From: Polytrichum commune
Lineage: Eukaryota > Streptophyta > Polytrichopsida > Polytrichales > Polytrichaceae
Reading direction: 5' to 3'
NCBI GenBank assembly: GCA_950295325.1
Contig: OX485808.1
Coordinates: forward strand, 5,272,501-5,336,500
Length of the DNA: 64,000 nucleotides
Positions 835 through 29,194 of this stretch are shown here, one piece after another. The notes beneath the pieces are model-generated. The model ran no database searches, was not told where the DNA came from, and saw only the letters and a list, made by a program, of their open reading frames with translations. Each line of letters starts with the position of its first letter. Positions within the stretch are counted from its first letter, which is position 1. Position numbers and translations under genes: made by a program.

Positions 835-880
835 CATGAGCGTAGAGCGTAGAGCGTAGAGCGTAGAGCGGTGAGCGTCA
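835..880 (+). repeat. Left terminal repeat: CATG plus tandem 7-bp AGAGCGT units
   Basis: Four to five tandem copies of AGAGCGT follow CATG, then GGTGAGCG. The inverted counterpart is at 29155-29194. Tandem GAGCG-type units are also at 59521-59550 at the end of a related element. No 9-bp duplication of the usual MULE type could be matched around the two tips. Confidence 0.65.
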
Positions 881-1634
881 TGTTTTCATGAATTTCTCCG
901 CTCGCTTTTCAAAAATTTATTGAAACATAAGGATCCTATTACCATTGAATTTGGTCCGGACAAAATTGTAAATGTATATTTTTAGGGAAAAGAGTACCCC
1001 AAATCCGTGGAAGGGGGTCCTACTGCAAATTTTTGTTATTATATATATAGTGAAATTAGGGCTGACGTCATCATTTAAATGAAAGGGTGATTTAAATGAG
1101 GACCGTTCAAGGTTGAAATGAAATTGTGTTTTAATTAATTCACAAATTTTTTTTAGTGTTTAAGGCTAAGGGCGTAATTAGGGCTGGCTTCATCATTTAG
1201 ATGCGGGCATCCTCGAAACAATAATTTAAATGGTGAAGTTTATACAATCCAACAAGTGAATATTCTTTAGGTTGATTGGCCTCAAATTTTGATGTCAAAT
1301 TAATAAGAAACAATAGTATTCAAAGTTACATACTATTCTAGGGTTTTCACGGTGGACGAGTGATAGATACGTTCGTATGCAATAATTCCCTCCCCCACCT
1401 AGATATAAAGCTTATATGATGTGTGAGGAATGGAAACAATTACTATGTCAAGGGCTTTTACTACTTCATATAAGAAATTATATGACAAAGGAAGAACATC
1501 GAGCTCCAACCATTCCAAGCATCACTTTAGAGACGCATGTGCCCTTTAACATAACCAAACGCCCCACGGGTGTTTGGAGGCAAGAAAACATATTTTTTTT
1601 TGTGTTATAATGCTATTCATAGTTTAAAAAACGC
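881..1634. other. 3' flank of the ParB-methyltransferase gene; no gene seen
   Basis: AT-rich sequence between the terminal repeat and the stop codon of the leftward gene. It holds the subterminal CCGTGGAA motif near 1005. No supported coding region; it probably contains the 3' untranslated region and subterminal transposase-binding DNA. Confidence 0.45.
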
Positions 1635-4600
1635 CTAGTCATCTCTATCACTTTCCATTCCCTGCCTGGCCTCTACATCTAAATATTCCACCACACGCGT
1701 ATCAACAGGACGAGCGCGAGTAATAGGTGGAGATGGTGCGACCGCGAACTGATGGGCAAGCCCACCAACATACGAAGGTAGTTGGAACGCCCGTGGAGGG
1801 CTTCGAAACATGTCCGGGTTGAGGACACGGATAGGGCTCTCCCGTGGAACTCTGCACACAAAGCAACATACTAGAATGCATAAGCTAAAGCAAGAAAAGA
1901 AATGAAAAAAAAAAACCAATGAAAGAGGTGCTAAGTTAGAAATCAGACTTACGCACACTTTATGTGACGCCTCAGGAGCTTTTGCCGAGGTTCAGTAGAA
2001 GAGGGGTCCGGATGTGCGACAACGGGTTCGGCCGGAGGCACAGAGTCCCGCATAGGCAGCAGGACGACCTCGAAGATCTCCGAGTCTCGCTCGAGCGCCA
2101 CAATGTGGCGCTCAGCCATACGACACGCAGTGATGGATGCACCTAAATGAAAAGAAATTGAGTGAGGTAGAGAAAAAAATTAAAAATGCAAAAGCAAGAA
2201 ATGAAACTCCAAGACAAAGTATAGGAAGGCAAAGAGAAACCTGTGCCACATTGCCAATCCATGACAATGTCGTGCTTCCTCGTGAGCGTCTGGATAACAA
2301 TGCTTAAGAATTCCATGCTCTTCTCTCGAGCCCCTCTCCATGGCACCTTGTCATCCTTCATGAGTTGGCTCTCCTCATCCGTGAAATTGTGGAGAAGGGA
2401 ATCCTTCTCCAATGAGAAGCCCAACTTCGAATAGTCCTCCGCCTCGTAAACGGAGAGAGTGGAGCCGAGGGGCACAAGAACCTTGATGAAGAAGCGTTTT
2501 GTCTACAAAGAAAATTGCATAGTTAGTGACAAAAAGAAAAATGTACAACTTGAAGTAAATGAAGAGGAGGAGAAGAAATACTTACAAACATCTTGAGATC
2601 TTGTGCGGACGTAAGGTGAAGATCATTCACGCCCCACCAGTCCCTGGCGATAGTAAAGTGACATTCCAAGGCCCAATCGCGAATGTCGTCGTGCATCTTG
2701 GGGGCATCGGGGTGCATGATGACGAGGACACCGTTGTCATGGAGGTTGTCCTCTGCGAAAGTAAAGACATCATCAAAGAAACTCGGACCCCGGCGGTTCC
2801 ACGCTGGAATGTCGGATGGCGAAGTCGAGATGGCGGGCACCGGGAGATTGTCCGGTACATCGACAAGGAGAAGGTCGATACCGGTATGGGACTTGGGATT
2901 CCTGTTAAGGCGAGTCCGACCGACACCAACCTGTAGAGCAAAGAAGAAGGTTGAGAAGAGAAGAGGAATGCTTCACAAGATAGAAATGAATGCAAGAATG
3001 AAAAAAGAAGTGGACTCCTACCTTGACAAGGAATTCTTCGATGCGAAGGTAGGCCGCTTGGTGGGAGTTGGTCTTCGTGTAGTGGTCCATGAGCACTCCG
3101 ATGTCTACATTCTCAATGAGACTGTAGGTAGAAGCAGTCTCAGAGGATGTAGCACTCATTGCTGCTGCGAATGCCTTCCTCTTGCGAGTCAAAGAGGGGG
3201 CAGTGGCTGTGCTGTGAGAAGGAGCGGGGGCATGCAAGGCAAGAGGGAGGGATGGGCTACCTACAAAGGTGGCAGCAGGTGCAGCGGAAGCCTCGGCGGC
3301 GGCCTTCGTAGCAGAACGAGTAGACACAGTGGCTTGGGAAGCTTGAGTACCCAAGACCGCCTTCACCTTCTTGCTTTTGATTTCCTTAACAACCTTCGAT
3401 GCCTTCGTACCCTTCACCGACTCCTCGGGGACCACGGGCTCGTGAAAGACAACATCAGCGGGTGCCTCAGCATTCAAAGAGGTGAACAAATGAACCTCCG
3501 AGGGAGGAACGAACCCCTTCGAACAGTCCAAATACCACCTGCATGCTTGAGGTGAGCAAATGGGTAAACATCGTGCTCGTCAGTGTACATGAAATTCGGG
3601 GAGGAGTCCAGAACCCACTCCTCGACATAGACCGGTAGAAAGGAGGCAGAAAGAGCTTCTTTCGGAATAAGCTCGTGATAGATGTACCTAAAGCAAAAGA
3701 CATGGGAAAAAATGAGAGAAGTTCGAGTGTTGCAAAGAAAATGAAGGACAAGTAGAGAGGAGGAAGAAATACCTATAAAGGACACGGTGAATGATCTTGA
3801 TACCATCTTCAATCTCAGTGAGGTTCGTGCCCTTGAGGAACTTCGTGTTTGACTTCTCCTCAAAGTAATGCGGGAAGGCGTGGTCCCAGAGAAGGATCCT
3901 CCATCCATCCACGAACTTTGGTGGACGTAACACATCCCCTTGCACATCCCAATTGATGGCGCGGCCAAGGCTAGCCTCTAAGGACTTGAACTCCAAATCA
4001 ACCCCGTCCTCCAACTGTAGTCATAGAATGAAAAACAAGAAATGAGGATAGACAACCGTAGAGAAAACAATCAATCCAAAGGAGGGGAGAGATTCACCTG
4101 AGCCCAGAAAGAGGCCTTATGAAGCCAGGATTCGAGGACCCTCTCCTTAAGGGGCACAATGGAAGGGAATTTGTTGCCGATTCGGACAGTCATGGTGGAA
4201 TTCCACCAACGGAGCCACTTCGCCTTGAAATGACACGGGACATGAGTGTTGGCCACCTTAGAAAACTTCTCGATGGTCATGTCCGGGACCGTGTTCACCG
4301 AGAAGTGCCGATTGATCTAGATGAGGAAATTGGAGGTGAGTTAGCAAAATCGAGAAGAAATCATGAAGGACAAATCGAAGGAGAAGAGAAGATGAAGAGG
4401 AGCACCTCATCAAAGAAGGCGTCGGTATTCTCGGAGTTGGCAACGGCCACATACTTCTCGAAGCTCTTGGAGCGAATGGACTTTCTGGCCTTCTCCTCAG
4501 CAAGTGTCATGGCCATCCAAACACCAAGAGCGGTCCTCTGATCGGCCGGAGTCTCATCCTTGTAAGCTCTAGCTGCAGCGTCGGAGGCGGCGGAGATCTC

Positions 4601-7600
4601 TCTCTGGTTGCAAGCAAAGGTAAGCCAACGAAGAAGATGGAAATTGAAAGGAGAGAAATCAAAGTGTGGGGAAGTGATTACCTTGTAGAGAAAGGAGACG
4701 AAGACGTCGATGGTCAAGGGGTACCAAGTGTTGTGCTTCCTCTTGGCATTGATACAAGCCAAGTAGTCCTCCTTGGAAATGAGGTCCTTGAAGTCCTCCA
4801 ACTCCAAGGTCCCAAAGTAGCGGATGCGGTGAAGCTTGGAGGGGAGGCTGGACTTGACGTGGTCGTTCTCGATAGACCTACAAAAAATTGAAGACAAGAT
4901 GAGAAGACACTCACAAACAAAGAATGAAGTAGCAAAAAATAGAGAGAGACATACCAATTCACGTCGTTCATGGCATTCATGAGAACGCCACTATGCTTCC
5001 GCGAATCCAAGGCAATACAATAGGGAGAGATATGCCACGCCTCTTCCGTAGGATGGAACTTGTTCACGTGGCGCCACCAAGCAGTCAACCGGTGGTTCCC
5101 CTCCCACACGTAGAACATCTTGCCCACAAAGTGGACAAGATCGGGGTCGGCGGCCATCCGTGCATCGAATCTTTCACTCTCAAGCTTCCACAACGGACTT
5201 CAGGTGGACGAGATGTCCTCCGTGACCTCCAAGATGTCGTCCTTGTTGTTGTAGATGGAAACATAGAGAACACGGTCACCCTCTCGGTACCCCGTAACGA
5301 ATTCGTTCTCCAACCTCTGGACATCCAACTCGTTGATGGGCCAAACAAGTGGCAAATCCCGCAAGCGGCAGAGGGAGATGCAAAGTCGAGACTTCTCAAG
5401 AGGCCGAATGCGGAGGCGATTGATGACTGCCGTCGAATCTTGTTTCTGCTTCGCTCGAAGATTGACCTCACTCTCCTCGGGGTTAGCCGACTCGGGAGGT
5501 TCCTTGGGAAGTCTAGAGGGAGTCTACAAACATCCGATTCAATTTAGTACACACGAGAATAACTCAACCACCGACTCTAAAGGAGGGCAGGTGCAAGAAC
5601 GGAAGACATAAGTGTCTAAATCAACTACCTCCTGCACGTCGGTGTTCATCCGGTCAACTTGCTCGAGTTGTTCTGGAACAACCTCCTCAATATCCTCCAG
5701 CTCTTCGACGTTGTTCAAGTCCACAGCTTCCTCCGCTTGCTCCTCCTCCACAGAGGGCTCCAAGACCACAAGATCATCGGAGAGATCCATTCCCTCCAAC
5801 TCCTACATAGAGAGAAACAAATGGCATTAACAAAATGAAAGACTAATGAGATGAAGCAGCAAAGAAATTGTGAAAATTTGACCATATCTCTTAATCCCAC
5901 GGATCCGTGGGATTGGAGCAAATTGTCCACGAAGCCGCAACCGAGGTGCCTGACGAGTGAAAATCTGCCGGGTGGGGGGCGTCCTCCCTCACTAACTAAA
6001 CTTCAATTGGTCACCCCTTACCTCCATTTCTCAGCTAACTTGATCACAAGTGGTGTGTAAAACACCTTTTCTTTATTGATTTTCACTTTCTCAAGAGCAT
6101 TTACAAATGCTTTGCTCATACATAGAGTTCGTTTTTTTGCATCCCTACCTTTAATACTACTGTGACAGCAGTCCCTTCTACAGGTAGCCAAGCATGATCA
6201 TGTGCATCTCTAAAGTAACATTCTACTGGAATTAAGCTTCATGCAGCTGCAGCCTTGCACCACTTATCCTAATTACTAGAATAACACTAGGCAATTTCCC
6301 TGTGGCCCTCACAAGGAGCGCCTGAGACGAAGGAATTTCTTCTCCTTGACGTGCCCAACAACAGTCATCTCCTCACCTTCTTCCAGCAAGCTCTGTAGTC
6401 ATTCAAGCAGCAGCCGGATTAGTCCAAGACATCACCAATTTGAGCCAATTCACAAGATTGAACCACGAGGAACCTAATCCAACAACCGCTCCACCGCATA
6501 TCAGAAACCTGTGCATTCCCCTATCGATCAACTTCGCGAGGACGGTCTTTCAGATCACAGAATCGAGAGAAAGAAGCAATGTAGATAAAGGCCTGTACTC
6601 ACAGAAAGCGCTAACTGACATTATCTGGGGGAAAGAAGTATATATGTCTACATGGCACACAACCTATGTCAGGTACTTACATGAATTATCACTATATTCG
6701 TCAATTTGGGACTTTTTCGGCATTTTAAGACAGTAACAAATATAAGAACATGGATAAAATCACACGGATATTGGAGAATGTTGTAAGATGCAAATACTTT
6801 GAAGCGGGTGTTCATACGAAGAACCCAATTAAGACCTCATATCAAGATGGTTTAGGTAGGACGACCCAAACATTAGACCATGTTGGTATGGTCCATATAT
6901 TAATTTGAGACAAGAGAAAGTCTCAAATTAACGAATACAGTGATGAATACCTTACCAAGGTTTATGTACCTTCCTTCCATAGAAAACTAGAGAGAGTATT
7001 GCAACCTGAATAGTATATAAGTTATTTCTGTTATGAAGTACATCTATTACAACCAGCGCCTGTGTACTCTTTGTGAAGATCTAAAATGATAAACCATAGC
7101 CATAAGCATCAGTCCTTATCTACTCAGATAGGGTAACTAAAATCACCTTGAAATCTGTTGACGCCTGGCTGATTGGTTATTGCTCTGACATTGTAGTCTG
7201 TGCATCCTCTGCGACTCTTCGCCTGTTGACGCCACCTCATGAATTCGCCTCCTGCTTGCTCCCACATTACAAGTAAAATTCGAACTGGCGTTTAGTAATT
7301 CCTTCTGACCTTACCTAATTGATAACAATAATTTTAATCAAAACTGATAAAGAAACCCCAAAAATTTATGATTGGATGACAAGATATGATAAACAAAGTC
7401 CTCATTAAATTTATCATCCTTTCCCAATCTACTATGGATGATCATGGACTCGTCCTTTCAACAACCCCAGTGTGGTCATTCATATCATTGCAATCTGCAT
7501 GTGGAGAGTTCAAATGAGTCACAAGAATCATTACACCACCATAGCTAGGCATGGAGGCCATATTTCGCATCAATTGCAAAAGCAGAGTTTCTTTGGAACT

Positions 7601-10600
7601 GGCTACAAAGGTTCTGAAACCTCACAAGGATATAAACAAGTTTCATACTGGAATAATGAATCCATACGCAAGCTACTCCTATAGAGATGACCTTTCGTAT
7701 ATCCAACCATCTATGCTTTTGACTCTTCGCCCTCATCCAGAATGATAGTTGTAGAGCATCTGTCAAATCTGAGATCCTAGCCTTTCCCTAACCCAAAGGC
7801 AGCCCGGCCTTAATGGATTGACTAAATATGTTGATTAGTGTTGGAAACACTAATAGTCGACGAAAACGCTAAATGTCAATTGTCTTCATAGTGTTAGAAC
7901 ATCAAATGTCAACTCTAACACTATTTGTACCAATTAGTAACTTTGAATATTTACATAAGCGCATTTAGTGTTAGATGATTTTTTTGTAGCATGTAAGGGC
8001 AGCAACGTCTGCCAATCTGAAGCATGATTCTTCATATTGCTTCAGGCTAAGCATATGGCCGTATGTAACCCTGAGCGTTGGCCAATAACTTGGAGCACCT
8101 TAGAGGAGGGATTCAGCTCGCACACTCCGTCTGCTAAAACACCTAATTCATTTTTGCATCTATTGAGTCGCACGGACCCAACACCACTAAAATCTAATTT
8201 GATCAGTGCATGCATGCCCAGCTGATGTTGATGAGTGCGGGAAGAAGATGATTCAGCTCAGGGCTACACCAGCTCAACAGATGGGTCCTGGTAAATTAGA
8301 GATGAGGTTCCTGGTCGTAGCGAAATGCAAAAATCCAAAATATAGCAGGAAGGCGAAATGGAAAGCATGTGAAGTGATTTGAGTGGAGGCAGGCTACTTC
8401 ACCATGAAGCTCATGTGTGATGACTCTCTCCCCTGATCTATCTATCTATCTATCTATCTTGAGAAGCCCTCTTGCTCCTCTCGAACTTTTCTGTGCAGCG
8501 TTGTGGATTCGACAGTCCTCTCATTCTCCACTCCCCATCTTCGCAGCTAGCAGCACTGCTCTTGGTGCCCCCTTGCCCGCAGACCTTCCTCTCACCTCCC
8601 GTGACTGCACCCTCTTCCCGGCTTCCAAAACCGGCAGGGCTTAGCCCTCAGAGTTTCTCAGCCAGCCTGAGGGGGAGAGAGAGAGAAATGAGAGAGAAGC
8701 CCCAGCTCTCCCCGGACCCCCCTCAAGGCCTCCTATTTTTCCGCTGCCCGCCTCTCACCTCGGGCAGCTCAAAAGATTCCCCTTCCTTCCAGTTGGTGGA
8801 CTTCACTAAATATGTTGATTAATGTTGGAAACACTAATAGTCGACGAAAACGCTAAATGTCAATTGTCTTCATAGTGTTAGAACATCAAATGTCAACTCT
8901 AACACTATATGTACCAATTAGTAACTTTAAATATTTACATAAGCGCATTTAGTGTTAGATGATTTTTTTGTACATCTTCAAATGAAGAATTGGAGGTAGG
9001 ATATGTGAGCCTCATATAAAATGTAATATGCTAGGAATTTGATATTACAAAAATTTAAACTTAATGGAACCCAACTCAGATAATGCAAAATAAAGACAAA
9101 GGAAATTCTAACACTAATTGTAATTTCAAGTGACATTTAGTGTTTTGGGTAATTATTGGCTCTAATACTAATCTTCATCCAACACTAATCAACCTATTTA
9201 GTGTAGTTCCAAACAGACTAGATTATTTTCAAGAAAATGGTGTATAGATTCTCGTAATTCATAAAGTTTACTGACTTATCATGAAAAAAATAGGAAAAAT
9301 TCATGAAAAATGTCACTTTTTGGCAAAATGAAAACCCGTAGGATTGAAGACTATAGCCTCCTATGTGAGATTTTATGCACATTCATCAATTCCACGGATC
9401 CGTGGGATTGCAAGACGTGGGTCCCGCTGCCCATGAATGTAGACATTCTCCTATCCCACGGATCCGTGTGATTAATGTTTGTCTTGTTGCATGACAATGT
9501 GCATACTATTCAATCCCACGGATCCATGGAATTGATGAATGTTAGCTCCGATTGTGAGGCCAAACCCCCCACCCTTAAGCGTCCGTAGTCCGAGTAGTGG
9601 GTTTGGGCTCACATTCCTCCGCGGTATTGGATTTGGACTTGGATGAGTCCATAGTGCAAGGTTCACCCTTCAAGTGGTCTTGGATTTAACTGGAATTTCA
9701 CTTTTAACAACTCAATGTACGATTTCAATACGTATGTGGAGAATGCACAAGTTAACTATGTTATTTTAACCTCCTTATGCTCGGGTGCTATTTTGTCTTT
9801 GTTTGCTTCTAACGTCCATCCGGCTGCTTTAGCTACACAAGCCCTTAAGGATATCCCTCTCCTAAATGGAGTCCGTGCCGTTGACTCTATACTACCACTT
9901 GAACTATCACTTGTGTATTCCGTATCGCTACTATAAGAGGTCTCACTTGGTGTCTCCATACCGTACATAAGCCTTTAAGTATTAAGAAATACTTATGTGA
10001 CTTATGTCAATCTCTCCCTCGCACCTTTGGTCTTTGCTTCCTTTGTCTTGCCATCGCGAGAGTGCTCCACATTCTCCATTAAGTTGTGCACGTGGTTTAT
10101 TTTTAAAGAGAGGATGCAAGTGTTAAAAAAAACACTATTCTCTATAGTCAATCTCAAATACATTTACTTGTGAAAGCCACACATAACACTAACTAGCATA
10201 ATGTAACTAACTACTTGTCTATGAGCTAATTAGGTAGGCTATCTACTAAGCTCCTTCATGAACCCATCTCTTTACTTTCTAATTACATAAACCTAGCTCC
10301 TTCATAAACCCAGCTCCTTCATAAACCCAGCTTCTTAGCTTCTAACTAAACAAACCCAGCTCCTTCATAAACCCAGCTCCTTCATGAACCCAGCTCCTTA
10401 GCTTCTAACTAAACAAACCCAGGTCCTTCATAAACCCAGCTCCTTCATGAACCCACAACTTTGTAGTTGTAATCCCCAACTACCTCACTAATTATTCAAG
10501 CCCTTAACTAATCTTCCTACCTAATTTCCCTAATTCTACTAACAATCCCTTTCTAATCACACAATTCTTCTCTAATCCTAAAATCCTAAAATCCTAGAGA

Positions 10601-13600
10601 GGAGAGGGGGAGAGAGAATTTCCTAACTTCACTAAGACTAACTAATCCACACAAGTATATTTTTGCACTCATCACAACATCAAGTGCTCAACTCTTAAAC
10701 ATGGAACTTGCAACCACGTGTATTCAAAACATGAACTTAAAGTACCACAAATTGGAATCATGAATTAACTTTAAAATCCTTCACGTCAACACTAATTCTA
10801 CCAAGAGGTCAAGCCCTCTTCAAGGCTAACAAGCCTTGGCTCTCAAACTAAAAACTAAGCACACACATGTGCTCCAATATGGCTTTCCACACCCACACTT
10901 ATAACTCGTGGGGTGCCTTGGAGCACAAAGGAAAGAGAGGATGAGTGAGGGAAGAATGAGGGATTATATAGTAAGCTTGAGGGGGTGAGCACCCTCAAGG
11001 CTCACGATAAGCCCTTGAGATTTCCTCCTACTTAGTAGGCGCCAATCCTATCTTCTAAGCCTTCCTCCCTCAAATGATCAACAAGGATCCTAATTCGAAC
11101 ATTTAACTAGCCTTGGCTTTCTACCTACCACACTTTACCAAACTTGGGATGCTTCAACCCAAACTTAGCCTCCTTCGCTTTCCGCCGCCATAACTTTCTC
11201 CCCTTACTTTCCCAAATCGTCGCTCACCACTTAATTCAAACCACGATGCTTAACTCGTGATTTGATTGGTGCTTTGAGAATTTGCTTATCCTCCACCTTG
11301 CATTCTTCCTTGGGCCTTCCCCATTAAGTGGCCATGATGAGGTGGTCCACTTGTGCGCTCCATGTGATCCTCCATTCATCCCAATTCGAATGCACTTGCC
11401 TCTTGAGTCACTTTGGTTGTCTCCATCCATTTGTACTAGCCTACTCACTAACTACTCAATCCAAGTTCTCCTTACCTATCCTCATTCACTCAAATCCTTC
11501 CGAAGGTAAAAACACAATAACAACTCACATCCTAGCCTCTTACAACATGGTACTTCTAAGACTAACATTTCACTCTTTTTATATTTTTGTGAAGTAACAT
11601 GCTACTTCAAAGTGCATCAACTAACGTTTCAAGGGTCTAAGACTAAATGTGGGCACCCTTTTGGGCTCACACCGATATAAAAATGTATGCACATGCATCA
11701 ATCCCACGGATCCGTGGGATTGATGAATATTAGCTCCGATGTAAAAATGTATGCACATGCATTAATTCCACGGATCCGTGGGATTGATGCATGTCGGCAT
11801 CGTTGCTCAACTGCGTAAACACTTGTCATTCCCACGGATCCGTGGGATTGGTCAATGTTAGGTCCAATGTAAAAAATTATGCACATGCATCAATCCCACG
11901 GATCCGTGGGATTGATGAATGTTAGTTCCGATATAAAAATGTATGCACATGCATCAATCCTACGGATCCGTGGGATTGGTGAATGTTGGCATCGTTGCTC
12001 AACTGCGTAAACACTTGCTAATCCCACGGATCCGTGGGATTGATGAATGTTAGCTCCGATGTAAAAATGTATGCACATGCATCAATCCCACGGATCCGTG
12101 GGATTGGTGAATGTCGGCATCGTTGCTCAACTGCGTAAACACTTGCCAATCCCAAGGATCCGTGGGATTGATGCATGTCGGCATCGTTGCTCAATTGCGT
12201 AAACACTTGCCAATCCCACGGATCCGTGGGATTGATGAATGTTAGCTCCGATGTAAAAATGTATGCACATGTATCGATCCCACGGATCCGTGGGATTGGT
12301 GAATGTCGGCATCGTTGCTCAACTGCGTAAACACTTACCAATCCCAAGGATCCATGGGATTGATGAATGTCGGCATCGTTGCTCAACTGCGTAAACACTT
12401 GCTAATCCCACGGATCCGTGGGATTGATGAATGTTAGGTCCGATGTAAAAATGTATGCACATGCATCAATTCTACGGATCCGTGGGATTGGTGAATGTCA
12501 GCATCGTTGCTCAACTGCGTAAACACTTGCCAATCCCAAGGATCCGTGGGATTAATGCATGTCGGCATCGTTGCTCAACTGCGTAAACACTTGCCAATTC
12601 CACGGATCCGTGAGATTGATGAATGTTAGCCCCGATGTAAAAATGTATGCACATGCATCAATCCCACAGATCCGTGGGATTGATGAATGTCGGTATCGTT
12701 GCTTGATGTGGTAGGCAAAATTTAATCTGACGAATCGGGAGTAAATTGTTGTTCCCAACAAAAAATACATTCTCCAATCCCACGGATCTGTGGGATTGGT
12801 GAATTTCTCACCTCTATCAAAAGCCGGGGAATTTAGCTGAATGCAGTTTCATGTTCAGTCAGCAATGAGAAGTCTAGATGCAAATGGAATGATTGCCTTA
12901 CTTGTGAATCATCGAGTGTCTCCGATCGAGTCTTTTTGCGTTGCTCCCTCAAGGCCTCTTTGTTTGGCGCTCTTGCTTCCATCAGATGTCTCGCGCCTCC
13001 CCGCATAGCCGGTGTAATACAATTTGTGCGCTTATCTTCTCCCTCTAAAGCTGTCACTTCGTGATCTGGAAATTCTATATCATCCGTGTCTCTATAGATA
13101 TGTCCGCTATCAGGGCTATCTTCTTGCTAATGAATCACAAACATATCTCGCGTTAGTTCAAACTACTGCAATGATTAGGGTTTCAACAGAAGCTTAAGCC
13201 TCCAAGGAAAACACTTACATTGTCCGCGGGAGGATCACTTGTCTGCTGAGGTGAATCCATCTTACTAGCATCACTCGCTCTGCTACTCGATTCCTTCTCT
13301 TGTTCGCTCTCGTCCATCGCTGTTGCAACTAAGGTCCCGTGAATCTTGCCCGCGTCCTCAGTTTCTGCTATCGACTCTAGGTGTAACAACCGTATTTTAC
13401 ACCTCCCTCTCCAAGTTCCTCCCTGATCCTCTTCCGCTTCGTCGCTCAAGTTCGATGGAGTTCCACGACCCTCAATGCTCGGGGTGTCCTTCTTCTTCAG
13501 ATCCCTCGCAACGCGCCTCTTCTGCTTCGAGTTGCTGAAGTTCGTCCTACCCCTCCTCTTCCTAGGCTTCTGTGACGGCTCCGCTGAAGAGACTGCTGTG

Positions 13601-13617: not shown

Positions 13618-14278
13618 GTGTGCGTCTCGATGCCCCACTAATGCCCGAACTTCTCTGCTCCTACACCAACTCTCATGCACACTAGCTACTCTCACGAGAT
13701 GCTCCTCCCGGAACTAATCGTACGTTCATGTCTCCCAAGCTAGTCCTCCGTATCCCTTTCCTTTGTATTTAATTTCTATCAAGCTATGTCATCGAATTAT
13801 ATTCCCGCGTTTAATAAAACGCGGTATCCGAGATTAGATCACTAACAACACTGACATCAGTTACTAATCTATTTCGAATTTGTCGATATATTTACGCATC
13901 TCTCCTGACAATGACGGCCTCCACAAATTTTCAAATTTATTATTTTTCCATAAAAGGTACATACACCTTTAGGGTTTAACTTCATCATTTCGGCATAGCA
14001 TATATTAGGTTATCAAGAATGAGTTATTTTTTAGTGCGTAGGAAAATTAGTCTATACTGACATGTATCATATTTGGTGGTCATAAAGTAATGACTATTAC
14101 TGGAGTACATTCTAATCCTACATGAAACAGGTTGTCTAGAATTGACATGAATAAATATTGACTATTAATTGATCTAATAAGTTGTCATATATTTGGGTAT
14201 TGGTGTCTACCCAAGGTGTATATAATACCCAATTATTGGTACCCTTTCCTTCATGTCATCTCATCATATTCTTCTCCA
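13618..14278. promoter_or_regulatory. Divergent promoter region between the two element genes
   Basis: About 660 bases separate the leftward start (13617) from the rightward small frame (14279). It holds a perfect hairpin, CCGCGTTT-AATA-AAACGCGG at 13805-13824, and a wider inverted pair AGATTAG...CTAATCT just to its right. Dual promoter function is inferred from layout only. Confidence 0.4.
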
Positions 14279-17700: not shown

Positions 17701-18321
17701 TGACACTACTGACCCCGGTGACTCTTCCCGTCAGGATTGCTCCCGCATCTCTCGCCCTTACTTGTTCTTCTTTTCCTCTTCTTTGTTCTTTATTTTTCTT
17801 TGTTTTCTGTATCACGAAATAATGAATCTGACTTAGAGAGTTTGCAACCAGGAGGATCGAGGCCTGCTTATCTGTATCCGGCTCCCCAGTATGAGAGTTA
17901 GCCTCCACCCTTGACACCCAGGTGCAAATCAGTGGGAGGGCGGCTCTCGTCACAGCTCTCCCTGACCACCGCTTGTCGACTCCCGTCTCCTTTTTCCTTA
18001 GCAGCTTCCGAAGTCTGTACTTCGGCCGATCTTGGCCGTGCGCCTTCGCTTGATTGTGCCTCTGCCGCTGGTGCTCCCACTCGCTCAATCCTTCGTTTTG
18101 TGCAAGCGACACATACGCATCTTTCTGTTCTAGTTCCCCTTGTCTCTTCCCGCCATGATCCCGTCTCCTAACCCTACATCTACCACTTCTCGCAATTCCC
18201 CAACGATTAAAACAAGTCTGTTAAGGCGCGTCCGAACTCCACTTCCACAGCGGAGCATGGCTTCCTCATGATCTCACTGCTCTCCTTCTCCTCTCTCCTT
18301 GCATCACTCCTCAATGAGGCA

Positions 18322-18450
18322 GGGCTTCGCCCCCTCTTTTCCCTCTCTCTCCTCCTCTTCTCCTACATGTGCATCAAATCCCAACGGAGCAGGGCTTCGC
18401 CCTCCTTCCTTTCTCTCCCATTCTACTTGCATTTTGGCAGGGCTTCGCCC
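18322..18450. repeat. Three GGGCTTCGCCC mini-hairpins
   Basis: The motif occurs at 18322-18332, 18392-18402 and 18440-18450, each preceded by CA or A. A fourth copy is at 26913-26923 in the related element. GGGC-TTC-GCCC can form a tight hairpin. Confidence 0.6.
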
Positions 18451-18829
18451 TCTTGACCTTCTCCCTCTCTCCTCTACCTCTGAAAAAACTTGCATAATGA
18501 GCTCCTTGCCTCTACCTCCGGAGACCCCTCCAACCTCTACCTTTTTTCCCGGGTTGCCCGGCATCTTTCGGGCCGCCCGAGAGAAAAATGGGTCAAGACC
18601 TTTTCTTTTGGCCTCTCCTCCTTCCAAACCCACTTTCCCTTTTCTTCCATTGACTTCTTCTCCCCCTAGCCTCATAGATAAATAAAACTCATAGATAGAT
18701 AGATAGATAGATAGATAATTAGATACGATAAAAGTAACCCACCATAGTTGTTACCAAGTAATCACGCTCGCGTTGTGGTATAAGTTGTGAGTCGTTATGG
18801 TTGTGGTCACCAAGTCATGTTTCCTCGGT

Positions 18830-18890
18830 TGGTTGAGGGAGGGAATTTGTACGACACTTTAAACGGTCCGGGTTCGACTCCCGTCGAGTT
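18830..18890 (+). other. tRNA-like Pol III promoter motif (possible SINE head)
   Basis: GGTTCGACTCC at 18871-18881 fits the B-box consensus GGTTCGANNCC, and TGGTTGAGGG about 40 bases upstream loosely fits an A-box. No full cloverleaf was drawn and no poly-A or T tail bounds it, so a SINE or tRNA relic is only a possibility. Confidence 0.25.
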
Positions 18891-19653
18891 CGTGTGATCG
18901 TTTCATGTGTTACACATGACTTGGCTAGTGATTTCTAGGCAGGAAATTAATATCCAACCAACCGGCTCTTACCCATCCTCCTGAGCTATCCGTGTAAATA
19001 TCATTCAATAAATAACGGTCACCATCATGACCCCCTCCTCTTATTCTATTGGTTTTTCTTGGTCCTTTTAAGCATGCTTTTACTAGACTCCCCATGAAAC
19101 GCTTATGCATTATTCCCCTTTAGTCCCCTAAGGTTAATTTCTCTCCAAGTTCCTAATCATTTTTTTTTTAGCCTAATTCCACCAAGATATTTAACACCTT
19201 ACCTTTCCCATCACCTACTAGTTCTATCAACCATGGAATCGACGTGTTAGCCATGTTTTTTGCGATTAAGGATTAATGTGAGTACGATTTTGGGCTCACA
19301 CTCAACTCCCCTAACTTAAAAAACCGTGTCTACAGTTTCAAGTATCTACGCAGATATGGCGTTCTTGATGGCATCACTAAGCTTAGAGGGCTTAGCAACT
19401 GGGCCTACGTGCAACGAAACATGTTTCTAGGCCAAGGTGACGACTCCGACAAGGTCTTCATATTCAAGATGTCCGAGGTGGGACCTGGCAGTGGTGTTGA
19501 CCTTGTCCGCCGAATGCAACCTAGCGGCGATTTAGAGCACTCATGGATGATGTTTGACCATGTCAAATGAGTTGCCAATTGGACCACCATGGCATGCCAC
19601 GTGTACGACTCCTCTTACCAACGTGTACTCACCATTGCTTGCTGTGATTTCCA

Positions 19654-20150
19654 CACGGGTAGATCACTCTAAGGCATTTTTGTGCACCACGTGCGGCTGG
19701 GGGTTATTTGTTTTGGGGCTATTTACCTTCAAGGGTTGAATTAAACCTCCCTATAATTACTTAAATTTCAAAAATGGCCCATTTGTTTGCACCCTTTCAT
19801 TACTTATATTGTCCAAGTCATTGCAATTTTTTGTACTCTATATTCCTTTTAATTCATTTTTGGATAGATGGAAATCCCAATTATCATCTATTCCCGTGAG
19901 TCCTAAACCCATTTACATACCATACTAAACATACCTTCTAGGATTCTTATCTTTAGCCCCTATATTAATTTTACAAAAAAATAATGGCCCACGTTTTATG
20001 TTCATCTAACTTCTTTATAATGGGATTGTCTACATTTAATGGCCCCTTCATTATTTGGAATTCCTTTATAATTTTTATTTCAAATGATTTTAATCCTCTC
20101 TATATTATGCCGCACGTCGTTTTTAAAATGCACTAAGTGATCTACCCGTG
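19654..20150. mobile_element. hAT-type MITE, copy 1 (497 bp)
   Basis: Terminal inverted repeats start CACGGGTAGATCAC; the right end reads GTGATCTACCCGTG. The 8-bp duplication GATTTCCA (19646-19653 and 20151-20158) is perfect, which fits the hAT superfamily. It splits the transposase codons CCDF and QSED. A second copy at 57158-57710 is highly similar and carries an extra internal segment of about 52 bases. No coding capacity. Confidence 0.9.
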
Positions 20151-21810
20151 GATTTCCAGTCTGAGGACAAAGATGCTCAACTCGTGTTCTGGAAGAACCT
20201 TAACCACGTCATGGGTAGGCATGGAATACACAAGCCGTAGTTCAAAGGTTTCATGGCGGATAGTGCTCAAGCCAATTGGAACGCTGTGCGTATCATATAC
20301 GGATCCGGAGACCCAAAGATACCCATGGAAGGCCGCGAGCGAACGTGTTATTTCCATTGGGCGCAATCCCTACAAAAACACACCAAACAATACATCGTGC
20401 ACGAATTGCAAGATCAACACAAGAAATTGTGTATGCAGTACAAAGATGCACAGTCTGTGGCAGAGGCTGAAACACGTTATTTGGCAATCAAAGCCTGGTG
20501 GACATCTTCGGATGCCACCTCTGACGCAGGCCTCCACCATTTGAACCATTGGCTTGCGTTTTGGCATTTCCGATACAGGCAGTGGGGTGGTTTCATGGAA
20601 CTGGTAAGTGTACACTCTTTCATTCAAATTATTCAATTATTTAAGTTTGCATTTTTTTCTCTGCGTCTAATGTAGTATCTAAACAATATTAAATCTTTTG
20701 CTTTTAAATGGCATGGCCCACCACGACTCCTCCTTGCTCACTTGAGTTTCCGAACATTTCTTAACCAGTTGCCTTCATACAGGAGAAGAAACTTTCTCCG
20801 GATGAACTAGCTGAAATGCCCTCTTGCAACCTTGCTGAGACCGTTCACAACAAATGGTTGCAAGCGTCCGGCAATAGGGGTGGCGATCTCTACGTAGCAG
20901 CGGTCGACGATTACGTTAGAGCATTCCTGCAAGTGGTGGGGTACTATCAATACCTCAAAGGTGGAGCGGTAGGCTCTGGACCCTTGAGAGAAGAACTTCG
21001 ACTTCGGACAGCCCAACGCCGAGCTCACCGAACCGGGGATCCGACTACCCTGAACGCAGCCGTCTTGAACATGCCCGGAGCCGAAGATTTTTGTACTCGA
21101 GACGCACACCTCGAAGGAGCTGAGGTTTTTGGGTCGAGGAAACGGAAGCCGGATCTTCCCCTTGGCGCCGAAGAAGAAACTCATAGGCCAGACACTGTTA
21201 ATTTTTCACGTCCTCGAGTGGGTCGGAGGGTGACACATGCTCGTGCTCAAAATCTGAGTACCATCCAGGAGGAAGTTCAAGTGGAAGTAGAACGCCCAAC
21301 ACAGCCCCCTGCCTCAACTGGCATAGATATTGGACGGGTGACGGCCGTGGAGGAGACTCGTGTGAATGAGAAGCTATGGCACATTGCCCGACTTAATAAG
21401 GTTTCTGCGAAGGCTTGTTGGGCGCAGATGGTTGTCACTCGAAAGAAGTGTACATCCCGTATCGTCCAAAACGGGAAGAGCACCCCAGCTCCCACATACA
21501 CTGGCCTTTGGACCCACCCTCAAAAAGGTAACCAGAAGGTGGTGGAGCAGTTTTTTTTCTGTGCTGACGATATTGAGAGGTGTGTGAAGGGGCATCGTCG
21601 ACGATGGATAGAGCCATTTTCGGATTACGAGGAACGACCTCCCATCCCGTCGGTTTGGCCTGTGAAGATAGGGACCAATCTCACACGTTCCGAGATTGAA
21701 GCGTTGGAGAACGCGGGATTTCAACTTCCCCAAAAGCAAAGCGTTCCTATGAGCCTGTGAGGCCAAAGCCACCCCCCTTAAGCGCCCTAGTCCGGGTGAT
21801 GGTTTTGATA

Positions 21811-23844
21811 TAGTCTAACCTTGATAATGTCACCCTTGTTAATGGGACACCTTGATACTGTCACCTAAAAGTTTGAAACCGATTTTCTTAGTGTAAAACT
21901 CCCTCGTTATTATCCCTATCACCTTTGTTAATGTCACTATTTTTTTCCAAAATCCGTAGTGTAAATGTGATAATATCAAATATGGATGGATTGTATGTGA
22001 TGGTTGGATGGACATATTGTAGTAGCCAAAAGGGTCATGAGCCACCCCTGTGATAAATGCAATGTTATTCAAAGGGTCATGAGCCACCTCTGTGCACCAA
22101 CCCTGAACGGTGCTGTCTATACACGTCACTCAAAGGTGTTGTCTTTGATGGCGTTGCCAAGACTTCTTGGCCTCTATGCACCCCACCTTCCGTCACATGT
22201 GTTCACCTATGTGTCTTTGAGGGTTTCAGCTTGTGTGAAGTAATTTAGGATGTTAAGTTCTACGGTTTAGCTGAGCTGGTACAGAGTAGTGTCGACTTAA
22301 GCTAAATTAGTTCAATTGGTTTGCAATGTAGAAATCTCAAGATATGTGGCACGGTCTTCACTGTTTCTATAGTCAATAGTCGCATAGGAGAATCTAGTAA
22401 GATCCTGAAGACATCTTCAATTTTGATGAGACAGGTTTGTATTATAAAGCCTCTCCTTGCAAGACTTTGAATATTGGGAAGGCAAAAGGAAATAAAAAGA
22501 AGAAGGACCGTGTGACATTGGGGCTTTGCACTAATATCTCAGGGAAGGAGCGATTGAAGCTTGTTTTCATTCACAAATCAACACGTCCCAGATGCTTTCC
22601 TCGGAAGTTTGATCCAAATAGTATAGTACACTATTATTCTAACAATTCAGCCTGGATGAATGGTGATGCTTTTACACATTGGGTGAAGAGTGAGAACCGA
22701 AGAATGGCATTGCAAGATAGAAAAAATTGCATTATTATGGATAATGCAGGAAGCCATGATATTCATGGTGAGGTCAAAAAAGTTATAGATGGATTTAATG
22801 CTTTTGTACTCTCCCATATCACTATATTGTTTCTTCCACCAAATGTGACTTTAGTTGTTCAGCCTTTGGATCAAGGAGTGATTGCAGCATTCAAAATGTG
22901 CTATAAACGCAAGCTTGTTGCCTGGACTTTGCAACAAATTGATAACTCAAATGAAGATTTGGGGAAACTGAATGTTGATCTATTTCAAGCAATGCTATGG
23001 TGTGTGGCGGCATGGCATGAATTAGATGATCAAACCATTAGAAATTGTTGGAGAAAGTCTGCCATATTGCCTGCAGCGTGGAATGCAGATATCAACAATT
23101 CTGATGAACGTATGAAGTCCAAAATGGAGGAAGCAGCTTTGGAATTGGGCAATCTCATCGCCGCATTGAATTTGGGTTTGGATGTTGAAGGCAAGCCTAT
23201 AGAAAAGCTTAGTCCTTTAGAGTACATAAACATGGAAGGTGAAGATGATTTTGAGGTGGAATATTCTACTGAGGAGCTTGTGCAATTAGTGCAAGATGGC
23301 GAACATGTACTTGATTCCATGGAAGAAGACCCATTGATTGTTAATAGCAATGATGATGAGTCTAAAGTAGTGAAGCTAAGCGATGCACAAAAATATGCTA
23401 AAGATGTTTTGAATTTTATGGCTAGCCAAGGTTCTCAGATTTTCAACACTCATGAGTTGTTAGGAATGGAAAACATCCATGACAAACTCATTAGAATTGG
23501 TGTTGGACATTTAACATCACTAAAACAATGTGACATTAGAAGCTTCTTTGTCTCTAGTGAGAGGTCTTTACCTGATCTCAATGACACATTGTGATGTGCT
23601 CATGTTGTTATTCACAATTTTGAATTATATTTTACATTCAAAAACATTGAAGTCTTGTGTTTGTTTTTTTTTTTTTTTTTTTTTTTTTTACATTGTAATT
23701 TCATTTTGATTTTCTACCTTTTTTTTTTGATAATATCACATTATGCACAAATCTTCAAAATGTGACATTATCAAATATGTCACACCTTGTTTATATCACA
23801 CTTTATGGTGAAACGGATGGTGTGATATTATCAAGGTTAGACTG
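21811..23844 (+). mobile_element. pogo/Tigger-like DNA transposon (2.0 kb)
   Basis: The ends are inverted: (T/C)AGTCTAACCTTGATAAT on the left and its complement on the right, each followed by GTCAC or ATCAC. They are flanked by TA (21809-21810 and 23845-23846), the Tc1/mariner-pogo target. It carries a DDE_1-type transposase and a 27-base T run near 23663-23689. It lies nested in the LTR-like element, so it is the younger of the two. Confidence 0.88.
22400..23594 (+). CDS. pogo-like DDE_1 transposase, N-terminally truncated
   Basis: The frame opens just after a stop at about 22398 and reads DPEDIFNFDETGLYYK, then IIMDNAGSHD, then FLPPNVTLVVQPLDQGVI; these carry the three catalytic Asp residues of pogo/Tigger transposases. 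The first ATG in the track (22437) is already downstream of the first Asp. The CENP-B-type helix-turn-helix DNA-binding domain expected upstream was not found between 21811 and 22400. So this protein would be inactive for DNA binding, or its N-terminal exon is unrecognised. The C-terminal tail is acidic. Confidence 0.8.
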
Positions 23845-23903
23845 TAATCACATGTATTGTTTGTGTATTGAAAATACACCCTTCACATCCCAAGGCATTC
23901 ATG

Positions 23904-24128
23904 TCATTTTAAATCACTTTGTTTATTAATGGTAGCCTCTTGACTTGTAGTCGAATTGGCCTTCTCAAGGGTCCAACCGGCGGCCTTGGCAACACAAGCT
24001 CTCAAAGATATTCTCCCTTGGCCTTTGATTATCCTCTTCTTCACTCTTCCATTACTAGAGTCTTCCACTTTCTCCATCTGCCTAACCTCCTTTGTCTCGC
24101 CACCGCGGATGTCCTCCACCTTCTCCAT
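23904..24128 (-). other. Conserved short frame in the 6.5-kb LTR-like element
   Basis: Contains SLRACVAKAAGWTLEKAN, matching the frames at 9756-9968 and 53521-53694. It precedes that core with VEDSSNGRVKKRIIKG, also partly shared with the copy near 53.5 kb. Function unknown. Confidence 0.4.
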
Positions 24129-24403
24129 TAGTAATCCCAGTGATTTATTTTGACCAATAGGTTCAAGTGTTGAAAAACATTTTTCTCAATGGTTCAAGCA
24201 ACAAAACATTCAAAAGTCATACATGCCCTTCCTAGCCTAATGAATCCAATACTTTACCTAAGGCCTAAGATATTCTAAAAATAATCTATTGTAGTCCAGG
24301 TTAATTTGTGGTGGGGCAACTAAGGTTACTATGTGTTGATTTGTTGAGTGAAGGCCTAACAAGGCTTAGCCCGGCTTAATCTAAGATCTGCCTCAAACCA
24401 GTA

Positions 24404-24680
24404 GAGTTAGCTAGCTGCCCCAGAGTTGGCTCGGCCAGCCGGTTGTATTCGTAGCAGAGTTTAGCTAGCTGTCCAGCGTTGGCTCAGCCAACAGGTTGTA
24501 TTCGTAGCAGAGTTTAGCTAGCTGCCCAGAGTTGGCTCGGCCAGCAGGTTGTATTTGTAGCAGAGTTTAGCTAGCTGCCCAGAGTTGGCTCGGCCAGCAT
24601 GTTGGATTCGTAGCAGAGTTTAGCTAGCTGCCCAGAGTTGGCTCGGCCACCAGGTTGTATTCGTAGCAGAGTTTAGCTAG
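24404..24680. repeat. 53-bp tandem repeat, about 5 copies
   Basis: Units begin TTTAGCTAGCTGCCCAGAG and contain TTGGCTCGGCCAGCAGG. The copies differ by a few bases each. The tandem lies in the middle of the 6.5-kb LTR-like element. Confidence 0.9.
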
Positions 24681-24839
24681 CTACCCCCCCTAAATGATAT
24701 GTGGTACTTTTGGGCCACCCCCTTTCGAGGGAGCCTAAAAGTATCACACAAGCCCTTCGGTGAAGGTGGCCTGCATTTGCAGGCGCCCAAGCCGAACCCG
24801 GATGATAGGTGTATAACGTGAGTAGTTAGATTTTTAAAG

Positions 24840-27800
24840 GAGATTAAATATGCGTCGTAGTACCTCCGGAGGTTAGGCCTTAGTTTTTTACTAGTGTGGC
24901 TTTAAACTCCACTAACCAATTTCATATCTAGTTCTAACCTTAACCTACAACCTATTCTACGCGCAGACGCACCAGCCTTGAAACCAAGGCAATCCTAATT
25001 TGTGAATTGGGATGGTTCTGATACACCCAACCGGGTGTGACTCATACCACCCCAACTCAACGAACGGAATAACGACAATTTGATGGACCATTCAATTCTT
25101 CCTATTTCTTTATTTATTTTTATTTAGTTTTCTAAGCGGGGGAACTTGGCCTAAGTCCCACCCTTCACACAAATTCCTTCTTAATTACTTACTTTTGTTT
25201 GCACGTCCTAACTTACTACATTAACATATTAGGCATCACCCCTTACCTCGGGTCTCTTGCCAACAAGGGTTTACGATTTATTTTGTATGTTTTGATTGTT
25301 AAATGTGTTTACACTGGATAGACCACGAAATGCAACTCAATGGGACCAGGGTGACGGGCGACCTGTAGGTTCAACCTGTTGCGCAATCTTCATAAATTGG
25401 GGCCATTACTCCCAATCTATGGGGCCAACAACATAATAGTGGATTCGCGGGTCATTAACCCCACCTTTCCACCAACAACATTCAGAGTGGTCGTGTCGGT
25501 GATTAATCCGACTTACCACACACGAAACTTGCTAATAAATGAAGCTACTACCACAAAACATACCAAGGGCCCCGAAAACAATGGAATTGGGTACTCCCTT
25601 GGCGGTCAAGTGGTCAAGCCACTTGACCTTACGAGATAGGTGAGTGGGTTTAGAGATGCGTACCTTAGCCGTGCTCCCTCCAATCCTAAATGGAAGGCTT
25701 AAGGTTAGTTAATTTACCTCAATTTTCCTCGGTTGATTTGGGCTTGATGTAGGCCGAGCCGCTACCTCCTTCCTTGCTCCACTTTCCGAGCGTCGACCTT
25801 GCCTCCTTCTTTGTAACTAGTTTGGTAGTAAGCGTACCTTAGTTAACAATTAAAATATAAAGTGTTATTCTGCCCTGTAATTTAATTCTAAGCATAATTT
25901 TTATACTTAGTGCACCAAATTATCTTTCCAATGATCTAAAAATCACTCTAATCGGATAAGAAATGCAAAAGTTATGAGGGTTGGAAGTGTGAGGTCGATT
26001 CAACCGACCCTTCCAACCCACCTATCTACCTTCTAACTTCAAAAATTCATAGCACATTCCTTACTACTTGGATCTAGGCTTTCCTTATACCATTGGAAAG
26101 CTATGAACAAGCTCTAACTAGAAAAAATTATGACATCAGCAGGTTAAGCTAATAGAAATTCAGCGGACTCCTTGTAACACAGCAGTCAATCAAGAAGGCT
26201 TAAACTATGTATCTCGCCTTCAACAATTCATATCTAATTCAAATCTTAGTCAAATCAAACGTTCTATATGACCCTGGAGAGATATTAAAAAGATGTATTT
26301 GATAAAAATATTTGATTAGAAAGGTAAGCCGAAGTGAACCCAGCAGGTCCTCTGTAATGCAGCAGTCAACCAAAAGTTCTCAAACTATGTGTCCCATCTT
26401 GCACAATTCATATCTAATTCAAATCATGCTCAAATCAAATGTTCTAAGCCATTTTGGAAAGCTACACAAAAGTTCTACTTGGGAAAAATATAATTTCTTG
26501 GAATTAAAATTCCTATTGGGCTCGCAGGTCTGATCCAGCAGCCGCTACCCACAAGACCACCCAGTTTTTCTACTCCATCTTTGAAAATCCATAACTAATT
26601 GTCATCTCAACCAAATCACAAATGGGAAACGGCTATGGATAGCTATATGAAATCTCTCTAAGAAAAAAATGATAAGTATCTTGTTCTAGCTTTTGAACTA
26701 AGCCTTCAGGGCATTGGCAGATGAGGTCTATAATGCCTCTACTCAAAATTCTACCATCCAACCTACCTCTACAAAAAAAGGAATAATTTTGTTGGTGTGT
26801 TAATAAACACACAACCTAACTAGGAGAGAGAGAGTAGAGGAGGTTCTCAAGCCTTTCTTTTAGACCATTGAGAATACATGCTAAAGGATTTTTTCCTAAT
26901 TACATTGAAGCAGGGCTTCGCCCAAAAACTAGAGAAAGAGAGAGAGCTACAAGGTGGAAGGAGGGGTTTTTAAACCCTCTCACAAAAGGGTTGGACCCCT
27001 CCTCCACCGGATCCATTTTTCAAACCCTTTCCCGAAATTTTGGCTCGGGGGTTTTCCTGGTTGAGGTTGCCACCCTCTCGCCGAGGTGGCTCCGACAAAA
27101 AACCTTTAGAAATCTTTCTAATTTTTCCGCCATCGAGTTGGCAAGGGGGCAAGTGGGCAAGTATCCCCCTTGCTTTTTTTTTTTTGTCTTCAAAATTCTT
27201 CACGCCGATTTTATCTTCTTACCTAAACCACCTCTAATAGTCTTGTGTGCCTCACACTAACTAATAAACTAACACTTGCTTAGCTAGCATTTACTAACAT
27301 TTGCTTAATAGCTAGCATCTACTAATATTTGCTTAGCTAGTTGTTTTTACTAGCTAGCATATTTTTTCTACTTTGCTATCTTCTAGCACTACTTAGTTTC
27401 ATTTTGACCTTCCTTCTTCTAGGCTAAATGCTAAATGAACTAATTTTCCCTAAATTCCCTATCAATTCTAACTTTTAATGCTAACATTCTAACTAAAAGT
27501 GATCCCGCAGAGTGGTGGACCACTCAAAGGGTTCACATGATACAACCTTAAGGGCTAATCCAACATCCACTAAGTTCCCCTTCTTTGCACTTTGGCTAAG
27601 TGGGCTAACCTACACCACTAATGAACTAAACTAATCTAACACACAACTACTTCTAGGAGCTACTTACTCCACACACCTTGTCTCAAGCTCTAAGAGCTCA
27701 CCCCCTTGAGAGACAATGAGAGAGAGAGCTTAACTAATCAACTTCACTAAAAACTAATAACCCACACACGTGGCTCAAGCTCTTAAGAGCTTGCTCCCTT

Positions 27801-28200
27801 GAGAGCGCTTGATGGAGAGAGAGGAAAAATGAGAGAGAAAACACCTTAAGTAGCAAAGAGGGAGAGAGGGAGAGAGGGAGAGAGAGGTGAGGATAGGGTG
27901 AGAGGATTAGCACCTCCAATCACAATCCCTTAACCTTCACCTCTAAAGTAGGGACTAATCCCCATCCACCAAGCTTCCTTCTTCCTAAACTACCAAAGTG
28001 GATCCAAAAGTGGGCATTTAACCCGCGGAACTCACCTTGCTTCACCTTACCCCCTACTCACATTATCAAGGCATACTCTTATTGAATTCAACCTTGAGAT
28101 AATCACACAACACATTCTAATGCCTAAACTTAAATCCACACCACACTTCACTCTTTTTATGTTTTGTGAATAAACATAACACATCAAAGTCAAACTAAAA
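24840..28200. other. Interior of the 6.5-kb LTR-like element; no gene recognised
   Basis: AT-rich sequence with several related stretches around CATATCTAATTCAAATC (26.2-26.6 kb), a hairpin motif at 26913, and GAGAGAG tracts near 27.7-27.9 kb. The part from 27.66 to 28.25 kb is the 3' region shared with the other family members. Confidence 0.4.
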
Positions 28201-29154
28201 TTGGTTTCGAAGAGTTAATCACCACATGTGGGCACCATTTTGGGCTCACAGAGCCACATGTTCAATAGTGTAGCACCACCACCGGATCTGTCACAGGTTC
28301 CAATGCCAGATAATGCGGACGTTTATCCAAAAACACGAAAGTCAAAGAACATGCGCCGCTCAATCACTTGTGCCAGTTCGAAGCACATGCAGAACATTGA
28401 TTCCGCTAGAGCAATGAAGGCAAGTATTCTGAAGGTAGTAATGATACCTCAACCCGGTTTTGGATGCGTTGTAACTTTGCAATCTAAACCAGCTCCCACG
28501 GAGTCAGTTTACCATCTCTCAATTAGTGCCTACCCAGACTGCAATTGCCCGGCGTTCAAAGAGACAATGGCTAAGCTGGGTAGACGCGGGTGTCCATTCC
28601 GACCTTGTAAGCATCTTTACTATCTCTACGTACAAGTCTGCAAACTAGAAGCCGACCATGACCTCTTCATGCATGCGCCTACCCTCAGTTTTAAGGAGGT
28701 GAAAACAATTCTTGAAAGGGGGATCTTAGCCCATGCTACAGTTTAAAATCAACGGATTTATTTATTAGTCTCATATATATGTTCTTTTTCATAAACGTGT
28801 ATGACACACGTCACTCTATGTATTTTCACAATTTAGTGAATACGTATATATAAATATATATTATTTGTTCGCTATGTTAAATTTATGAATCACTTGTACT
28901 TGTCCTTCACTTGTGTTGTTCCGTGAACATGTGTCCTTTTAGTTCTATTCAATGAAGTCTTCTATTTCCTCCAAAACTCGGTCACAGATAAATTTATTCC
29001 ATGTCAAGCCCATTTTGCACGGTTATGGGTACTGAATTCCACGGTCATAAGACTATAATATTCGAATATTCTGAGGAATATACGCTTCCCCCAAAAATCT
29101 ATTTGTGGACAAAAATTACTAAAAATAATTCCTCTCCGCTCAAAATTCAGAAAA

Positions 29155-29194
29155 TGTATGCTCTACGCTCTACGCTCTGCGCTCTACGCTCATG
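29155..29194 (-). repeat. Right terminal repeat of the giant element
   Basis: GCTCTACGCTCTACGCTC units followed by CATG mirror the left end at 835-880. The CCGTGGAA subterminal motif lies at about 29036-29043 on the minus strand. Confidence 0.65.

Follow-up and report, generated by a model that had tools for sequence, protein, structure and literature searches.

The question raised by this locus is whether a ParB/methyltransferase-like gene (ParB-MT, or gene 1) and a gene for a MULE-like transposase, which lie divergently in the DNA of Polytrichum commune, are parts of a single giant transposon, and what the accessory gene would do for such an element. The stretch analysed, which we call the window, is 64,000 nt of the forward strand of contig OX485808.1 (GCA_950295325.1, positions 5,272,501-5,336,500), and corresponds to C6:5272501-5336500 in the genome scanned (407,808,757 bases in 64 contigs). 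The ParB-MT gene and the transposase have moved as a pair, and have done so in two diverged sub-families or more; the window element is a broken copy enlarged by nested insertions. The main features of this element are:

811..820, no strand, left copy of the target site duplication, CCGTTAGCTT, the same 10 bp standing outside both tips
821..877, plus strand, ParB-side end, with tip GGGGAAAG and then a 7-nt GAGCGTA array (tip comparison and array search)
1635..5790, minus strand, ParB/methyltransferase-like accessory gene, 10 modelled exons from 5790 to 1947 (GT/AG splice model, homolog P0001 and the open sister copy)
5893..12797, no strand, palindrome 1, AATCCCACGGATCCGTGGGATT, 21 copies (2 mismatches or fewer), the majority of them forming a tandem array of 64/192 bp (0 or 1 in each of 20 shuffles)
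14888..28746, plus strand, MULE-like transposase in pieces at about 14888-16198, 19301-19653, 20151-20660, 20786-21748 and 28258-28746 (tblastn with P0009 and P0002)
29157..29208, minus strand, transposase-side end, with 7-nt array and GAGCG tip (tip comparison and array search)
29209..29218, no strand, right copy of the target site duplication, CCGTTAGCTT, a perfect 10-bp match to the left copy

The original prediction, made from the letters of the window, had described inverted GAGCG ends with shared subterminal sequence around two divergent genes, and this is borne out. At up to 1 mismatch AGCGTAGAGCG has 9 matches in the window (shuffle mean 0.27) and GAGCGNNGAGCG has 14 (shuffle mean 0.85), the latter at 838-877 (plus), 29159-29191 (minus) and 59523-59548 (plus), with strays at 55881 and 60568. 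At each end the inverted 7-nt array reaches no more than about 60 nt from the tip, the outermost bases being unlike (GGGGAAAG and GAGCG), and CCGTGGAA is present at 1005, 29037 and 59645. The ends had been placed at 839 and 29190; they are real, but the true tips, fixed with the help of other elements, are 18 nt further out, and the element spans 821-29208. The initial 11 nt of the ParB-side tip are the same in the window, C2 and C3 elements. Alignment of the ends, which had been proposed as the way to the true target duplication, gave the perfect 10-bp CCGTTAGCTT; this replaced a 9-bp candidate once other elements had fixed the tips, and a scan confined to the 9 nt or so next to the array gave nothing above chance. 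The flanks of the window element have a 12-nt run in common, and runs of at least 12 nt were found in 14 of 19,697 random 60-nt flank pairs drawn from the window, some of the 14 being real repeats.

A sister element on C2 (sister D, 37555521-37574421, 18,901 bp) has its own perfect 10-bp duplication, CCCTCAAAGA, and matches the window element in long blocks at 96-99% identity. Its transposase is a single unbroken 669-residue match to P0026 (95.7%, no stops), the frame is open in all 10 modelled ParB-MT exons, and its length is near that of the window element minus three insertions, about 18.3 kb. Element A, on C3 (48368816-48390139, 21,324 bp, perfect 10-bp duplication AACGCCCATA), and a near-identical copy on C7 with its own perfect 10-bp duplication, CTATTTTGAT, each have the ParB-MT gene and the transposase in divergent orientation; the C7 copy was read as two 9-kb pieces, the middle being left out. 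A ParB-like and methyltransferase-like gene thus stands opposite a transposase within one transposon, and because four elements (window, C2, C3 and C7) carry both genes divergently, each with its own target duplication, the two move as one unit, as had been proposed. The window copy itself is a relic: in ParB-MT exon 2 is interrupted by an in-frame TGA and exon 7 by a frameshift, and the transposase has three insertions.

Further copies with the two genes head to head, a search for which had also been proposed, are those on C2, C3 and C7, but in the genome lists only 3 of the 61 scored transposases (of 2394 candidates) have a ParB exon of the gene-1 type, among the 150 scored of 1324 candidates, within 30 kb. 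This was counted by eye on both scored lists, which are known to miss pairs, as the transposase of sister D, with ParB-MT adjoining, is outside the 61. Two of the three pairs are divergent (C3 and C7) and one is convergent (C2:8863065 / 8870706); on C6 a transposase and a ParB exon share a strand at a distance of 31 kb. In the pair on C2 (8863065-8871239) the distance from transposase to ParB exon is 5.5 kb, and its convergent arrangement sets it apart from the other pairs. No scored ParB exon lies within 30 kb of the 16 best transposase matches, which are 93% identical to P0002; these have either a ParB gene of another lineage, or one outside the 150, or none. The presence of transposase P0036 and ParB exon P0073 both on contigs of length 674,632 suggests that the two may be linked in another assembly.

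MULE transposases, those of the MuDR/Jittery/Hop type among them, are DDE enzymes in which a C..H stands after the second catalytic residue and before the third, and a SWIM zinc finger is common in them, if not universal; the transposase here has a putative C..H of this kind. The protein collection holds 50 relatives, at 43-82% identity to copy 3, and in 18 that were aligned D541, D607, C636 and H639 are invariant, with NLAETVHNKW further on (read by eye). The C-terminus may be SWIM-like, matching PF04434 below threshold (E 0.003, 17.5 bits, cut-off 19.6). The inverted 7-nt arrays are terminal inverted repeats as in MULEs, and the perfect 10-bp duplication, in 4 of 4 elements examined, is within the 8-11 bp range given for MULEs, the MuDR/Jittery/Hop type included (PMC6446971, accessible part). 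Unlike those elements ours have no Pfam transposase match (5 relatives scanned), are 19-21 kb long and have 7-nt GAGCG arrays after the tips. The transposase is thus probably of MULE type, as had been predicted; in place of a Pfam match the assignment uses the motif spacing read by eye, the SWIM match below threshold, the ends and the target duplication.

In the case of gene 1, two parts of the protein bear on function:

4955..5523, minus strand, exon 2, ParB/sulfiredoxin-like domain with motif FYVWEGNHRLTAWW (model of a relative, structural comparison, 23 aligned relatives)
2027..2930, minus strand, methyltransferase-like domain in exons 8-10, with motif IV as VDVPDNLP and motif I as VMDWQCGTG (PF01555 match of P0001, alignment)

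A motif of GNHR type is the mark of ParB/sulfiredoxin-fold proteins, and exon 2 has one: EGNH is invariant in the 23 aligned relatives, with R in at least 90%. The ParB exon is predicted, from the model of a relative, to take the ParB/sulfiredoxin fold. The probable last exon ends at 1635, with a C-terminal piece at 1823-1662 (tblastn with P0001), and counterpart stretches of the exon 8-10 domain were found in element A. A homolog of gene 1 is present in Ceratodon purpureus; this and a kinase-domain fragment in the window would agree with a land-plant source, perhaps a moss. A sequence search of PDB gave no match for P0001 and one for A4, at E 1.1; NCBIfam gave none for P0001, P0009 and P0002; and scans of viral_contigs with the transposase, the first ParB type and the second ParB-like type confirmed 0 related loci for each.

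All 21 copies of palindrome 1 in the window fall between the two genes, those outside the main array being singles at 5893 and 12776 and a short run at 9388-9512. Genome-wide there are 192 sites at up to 2 mismatches, and 0 for the reversed control. The 50 sites listed of these 192 form 7 clusters. In 6 of the 7 the palindromes lie 5' of a ParB exon of the gene-1 type, and in five of these 6 a site stands 388-391 nt from the exon match. A cluster at C4:55128443-55129358 has no ParB exon among those scored and is perhaps a non-autonomous copy. Sister D has 24 sites at up to 4 mismatches. Element A has none within 4 mismatches; it has instead an imperfect palindrome, GTGCTTTCGGAGCAGAAAGCAC, five times (at 9901, 11106, 11660, 12214 and 14604 of the joined element sequence), which is absent from sister D and the window within 4 mismatches, and a second class of palindrome, GGGTGYCGTNNACGRCACCC, of which a 94-bp tandem array has six copies, four of them exact and the other two with 2 mismatches. 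In the elements read the palindromes go with the sub-family. A regular expression for translated palindrome 1 had no match in the fetched proteins.

The window has another gene of this general kind:

58280 to about 50560, minus strand, second, diverged ParB-like gene (with upstream region 50560-58857), recognised by IIDGQHSLEASQ in surroundings like those of ParB

The gene has no significant similarity to gene 1, and its CGGS stretch is taken as a putative motif I. A tandem array of about 19 copies of a 48-bp unit lies at 52342-53235. The introns and upstream region of the gene hold 13 copies, at up to 4 mismatches, of palindrome 2, TTTACGAACGNNCGTTCGTAAA, for which there are 5,060 sites genome-wide at up to 1 mismatch and 0 for the reversed control; the two centre bases, free in the search, take many values. 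A translation of palindrome 2 is found in 12 of the 13 tails of relatives whose open reading frame (ORF) continues into intron 2 (21 matches); neither the 43,161 residues from other proteins nor the 5,261 coding residues have any. The set comprised 15 relatives, P0052-P0066, of which P0057 and P0059 end before the intron; P0074, of the same second type, also ends before the intron and was left out, and P0052, whose tail has the near form RTNVH, was scored as a miss. Because it is conserved at a fixed intron place, palindrome 2 is best explained as a protein site.

On balance we lean, with little more than even confidence, towards a giant transposon of MULE kind, from a family that encodes its own transposase, whose accessory protein would provide self-recognition and anti-silencing for its own sub-family, as VANC does. 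The ParB/sulfiredoxin-like protein, in the form of a dimer or a clamp that spreads, would bind its own element's palindromes, and the methyltransferase-like domain may be a reader that binds S-adenosylmethionine or DNA, or a methyltransferase with altered chemistry. Loaded on its own copies, the protein would keep host silencing off that sub-family only, while the transposase would have as its substrate the GAGCG ends, in which CCGTGG[A/G]A is the subterminal site. More tentatively, and with less than even confidence, we suggest a diversified clan of MULE-like giant transposons, spread over the genome of a land plant, in which a ParB fold of bacterial type, joined to a repurposed and catalytically altered methyltransferase domain, would co-diverge with the palindromes of each element (5,060 sites in one class alone), giving self-recognition and anti-silencing systems whose DNA specificity can evolve and which arose independently of VANC.

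A less likely reading is that of an active N4-cytosine or N6-adenine methyltransferase: the accessory protein would mark the palindromes of its own element, and the mark would protect or regulate that element. The domain order, ParB and then motif IV before motif I, is in keeping with this, as is the PF01555 match of P0001 over the motif I half (E 0.015), and the authors of the Ectocarpus work propose self-binding and modification for their own ParB-methylase gene (PMC12477816, accessible part). However the PF01555 score, 15.7 bits, is under the curated cut-off of 26.7. The putative SAM-binding motif I reads DWQCGTG, DWKAGTG or DWSANTG among the members compared. The canonical methyltransferase motif IV is (D/N/S)PP(Y/F/W), as in DPPY, and was not found in three diverged members: the window element and its C2 sister read DVPDNLP, element A, of which the genome has another, near-identical copy, reads DIPENLP, and Ceratodon reads DAPEGLP. 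Because motif IV is not DPPY in these three the domain may be non-catalytic, and of the DNA methylase cargo originally predicted the methyltransferase-like domain stands but the canonical catalytic motif IV does not.

Also unlikely is that the palindromes are sites for the transposase, enhancer or autoregulatory, with ParB-MT doing something else, such as synapsis of ends about 20 kb apart. The palindromes do sit in the shared divergent promoter region, and subterminal CCGTGG[A/G]A, found in 5 of 5 ends examined, resembles the palindrome 1 half-site CCGTGGGA. However element A, where CCGTGGAA is 162 nt inward of one tip and CCGTGGGA 166 nt inward of the other, has CCGTGG[A/G]A without palindrome 1, and therefore the two do not go together; on the same ground subterminal CCGTGGAA was ruled out as a half-site of palindrome 1. 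Palindrome 2, moreover, lies in introns of the second ParB-like gene, at the same place in relatives. That the palindromes are functionless by-products of tandem duplication and ParB-MT a captured passenger is highly improbable: most palindrome-1 copies are in the tandem array, and MULEs gain extra ORFs that are often considered host-derived (PMC6446971, accessible part), but other palindrome-1 copies stand outside it, the palindrome-2 centre varies widely, its translated trace recurs in relatives, and the accessory gene is common to elements with 50% identical ParB exons and to Ceratodon.

With regard to known systems, bacterial ParB/Noc/KorB proteins have palindromic sites clustered near their gene, as the palindromes are here. 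The predicted exon 2 fold is like that of these bacterial and plasmid partition and silencing proteins, but in this plant transposon a methyltransferase-like domain is joined to it, and no search for ParA or parS was made. ParB-methylase accessory genes opposite a transposase are known in algal transposons of other superfamilies (PMC12477816, which in its accessible part cites Iyer 2011 and Petroll 2025 for green and red algae). The brown-alga ParB-methylase transposon has a Sola-1 transposase, whereas ours is MULE-like and in a land plant; its accessible description predicts a methyltransferase product and leaves palindromic arrays unmentioned, whereas motif IV is non-canonical here. The cargo had not been placed in a described family, which holds in that a literature search, with most subscription papers outside it, gave no MULE-like or land-plant ParB-methylase transposon and no palindrome link, but not for the accessory genes, which are in print for algae.

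The arrangement, which alone was compared, is like that of the VANDAL MULEs of Arabidopsis as far as the accessible text describes them, with a MULE, an extra gene and short sub-family-specific motifs in introns and upstream regions. VANC motifs are tandem repeats in such places and differ between VANCs (PMC5735166, accessible part). Unlike VANDALs, for which short degenerate terminal inverted repeats are described in the part available, our elements have clear ends and palindromic motifs, and no ParB or methyltransferase domain is mentioned there for VANC, to which the accessory protein looks unrelated. The escape of transposons from silencing is understood in a few cases, VANC among them, and in these elements a DNA-clamp fold known from bacteria seems to have become the means by which a transposon recognises itself. 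As the palindromes differ from lineage to lineage within a single genome, the specificity code can be tested directly. The ParB-methylase accessory gene is extended from algal elements of other superfamilies to a plant MULE-like element, and catalysis by the methylase part may be dispensable.

There remain the insertions in the transposase, and the end of a further element:

16198..19300, no strand, nested insertion like those with long terminal repeats (LTR-like), 5-bp duplication CTCAA (junctions; missing from sister transposase)
19654..20150, no strand, nested miniature inverted-repeat transposable element (MITE), duplication of about 8 bp, GATTTCCA (junctions; comparison with sister)
21756..28250, no strand, nested LTR-like insertion, 5-bp duplication GAGCC, holding a DDE_1 gene (junctions)
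59506..59549, plus strand, transposase-side end of a separate element extending past the window (tip compared with element A; array)
60252..63999, minus strand, second transposase copy, with a TGA and a frameshift and its 5' end outside the window (tblastn and genome matches)

The third end, predicted near 59521, is real and in the orientation given, and its tip at 59506 agrees with the transposase-side tip of element A at 19 of 22 positions (by eye). It had been put at an equal distance from its transposase, but stop to tip is 746 nt here and 462 nt in the first copy.

The DDE_1 transposase ORF in the insertion at 21756-28250 is at 22401-23594 (E 2.8e-34). LTR-like ends (TG...CA) are found at 16198-19300, 21756-28250 and about 51600-53810 (duplication ATGCA), each within a transposon gene, and like MITEs with terminal inverted repeat CACGGGTAG lie at about 57165-57711 in the second ParB-like gene and at 19654-20150 in the transposase. 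Between the two genes of the window element there is a minus-strand open frame of 176 codons at 13183-13713, with no Pfam match, and a pair of 171-nt direct repeats, at 7818-7988 and 8802-8972, which are 98% identical with starts 984 nt apart and are perhaps a small LTR pair.

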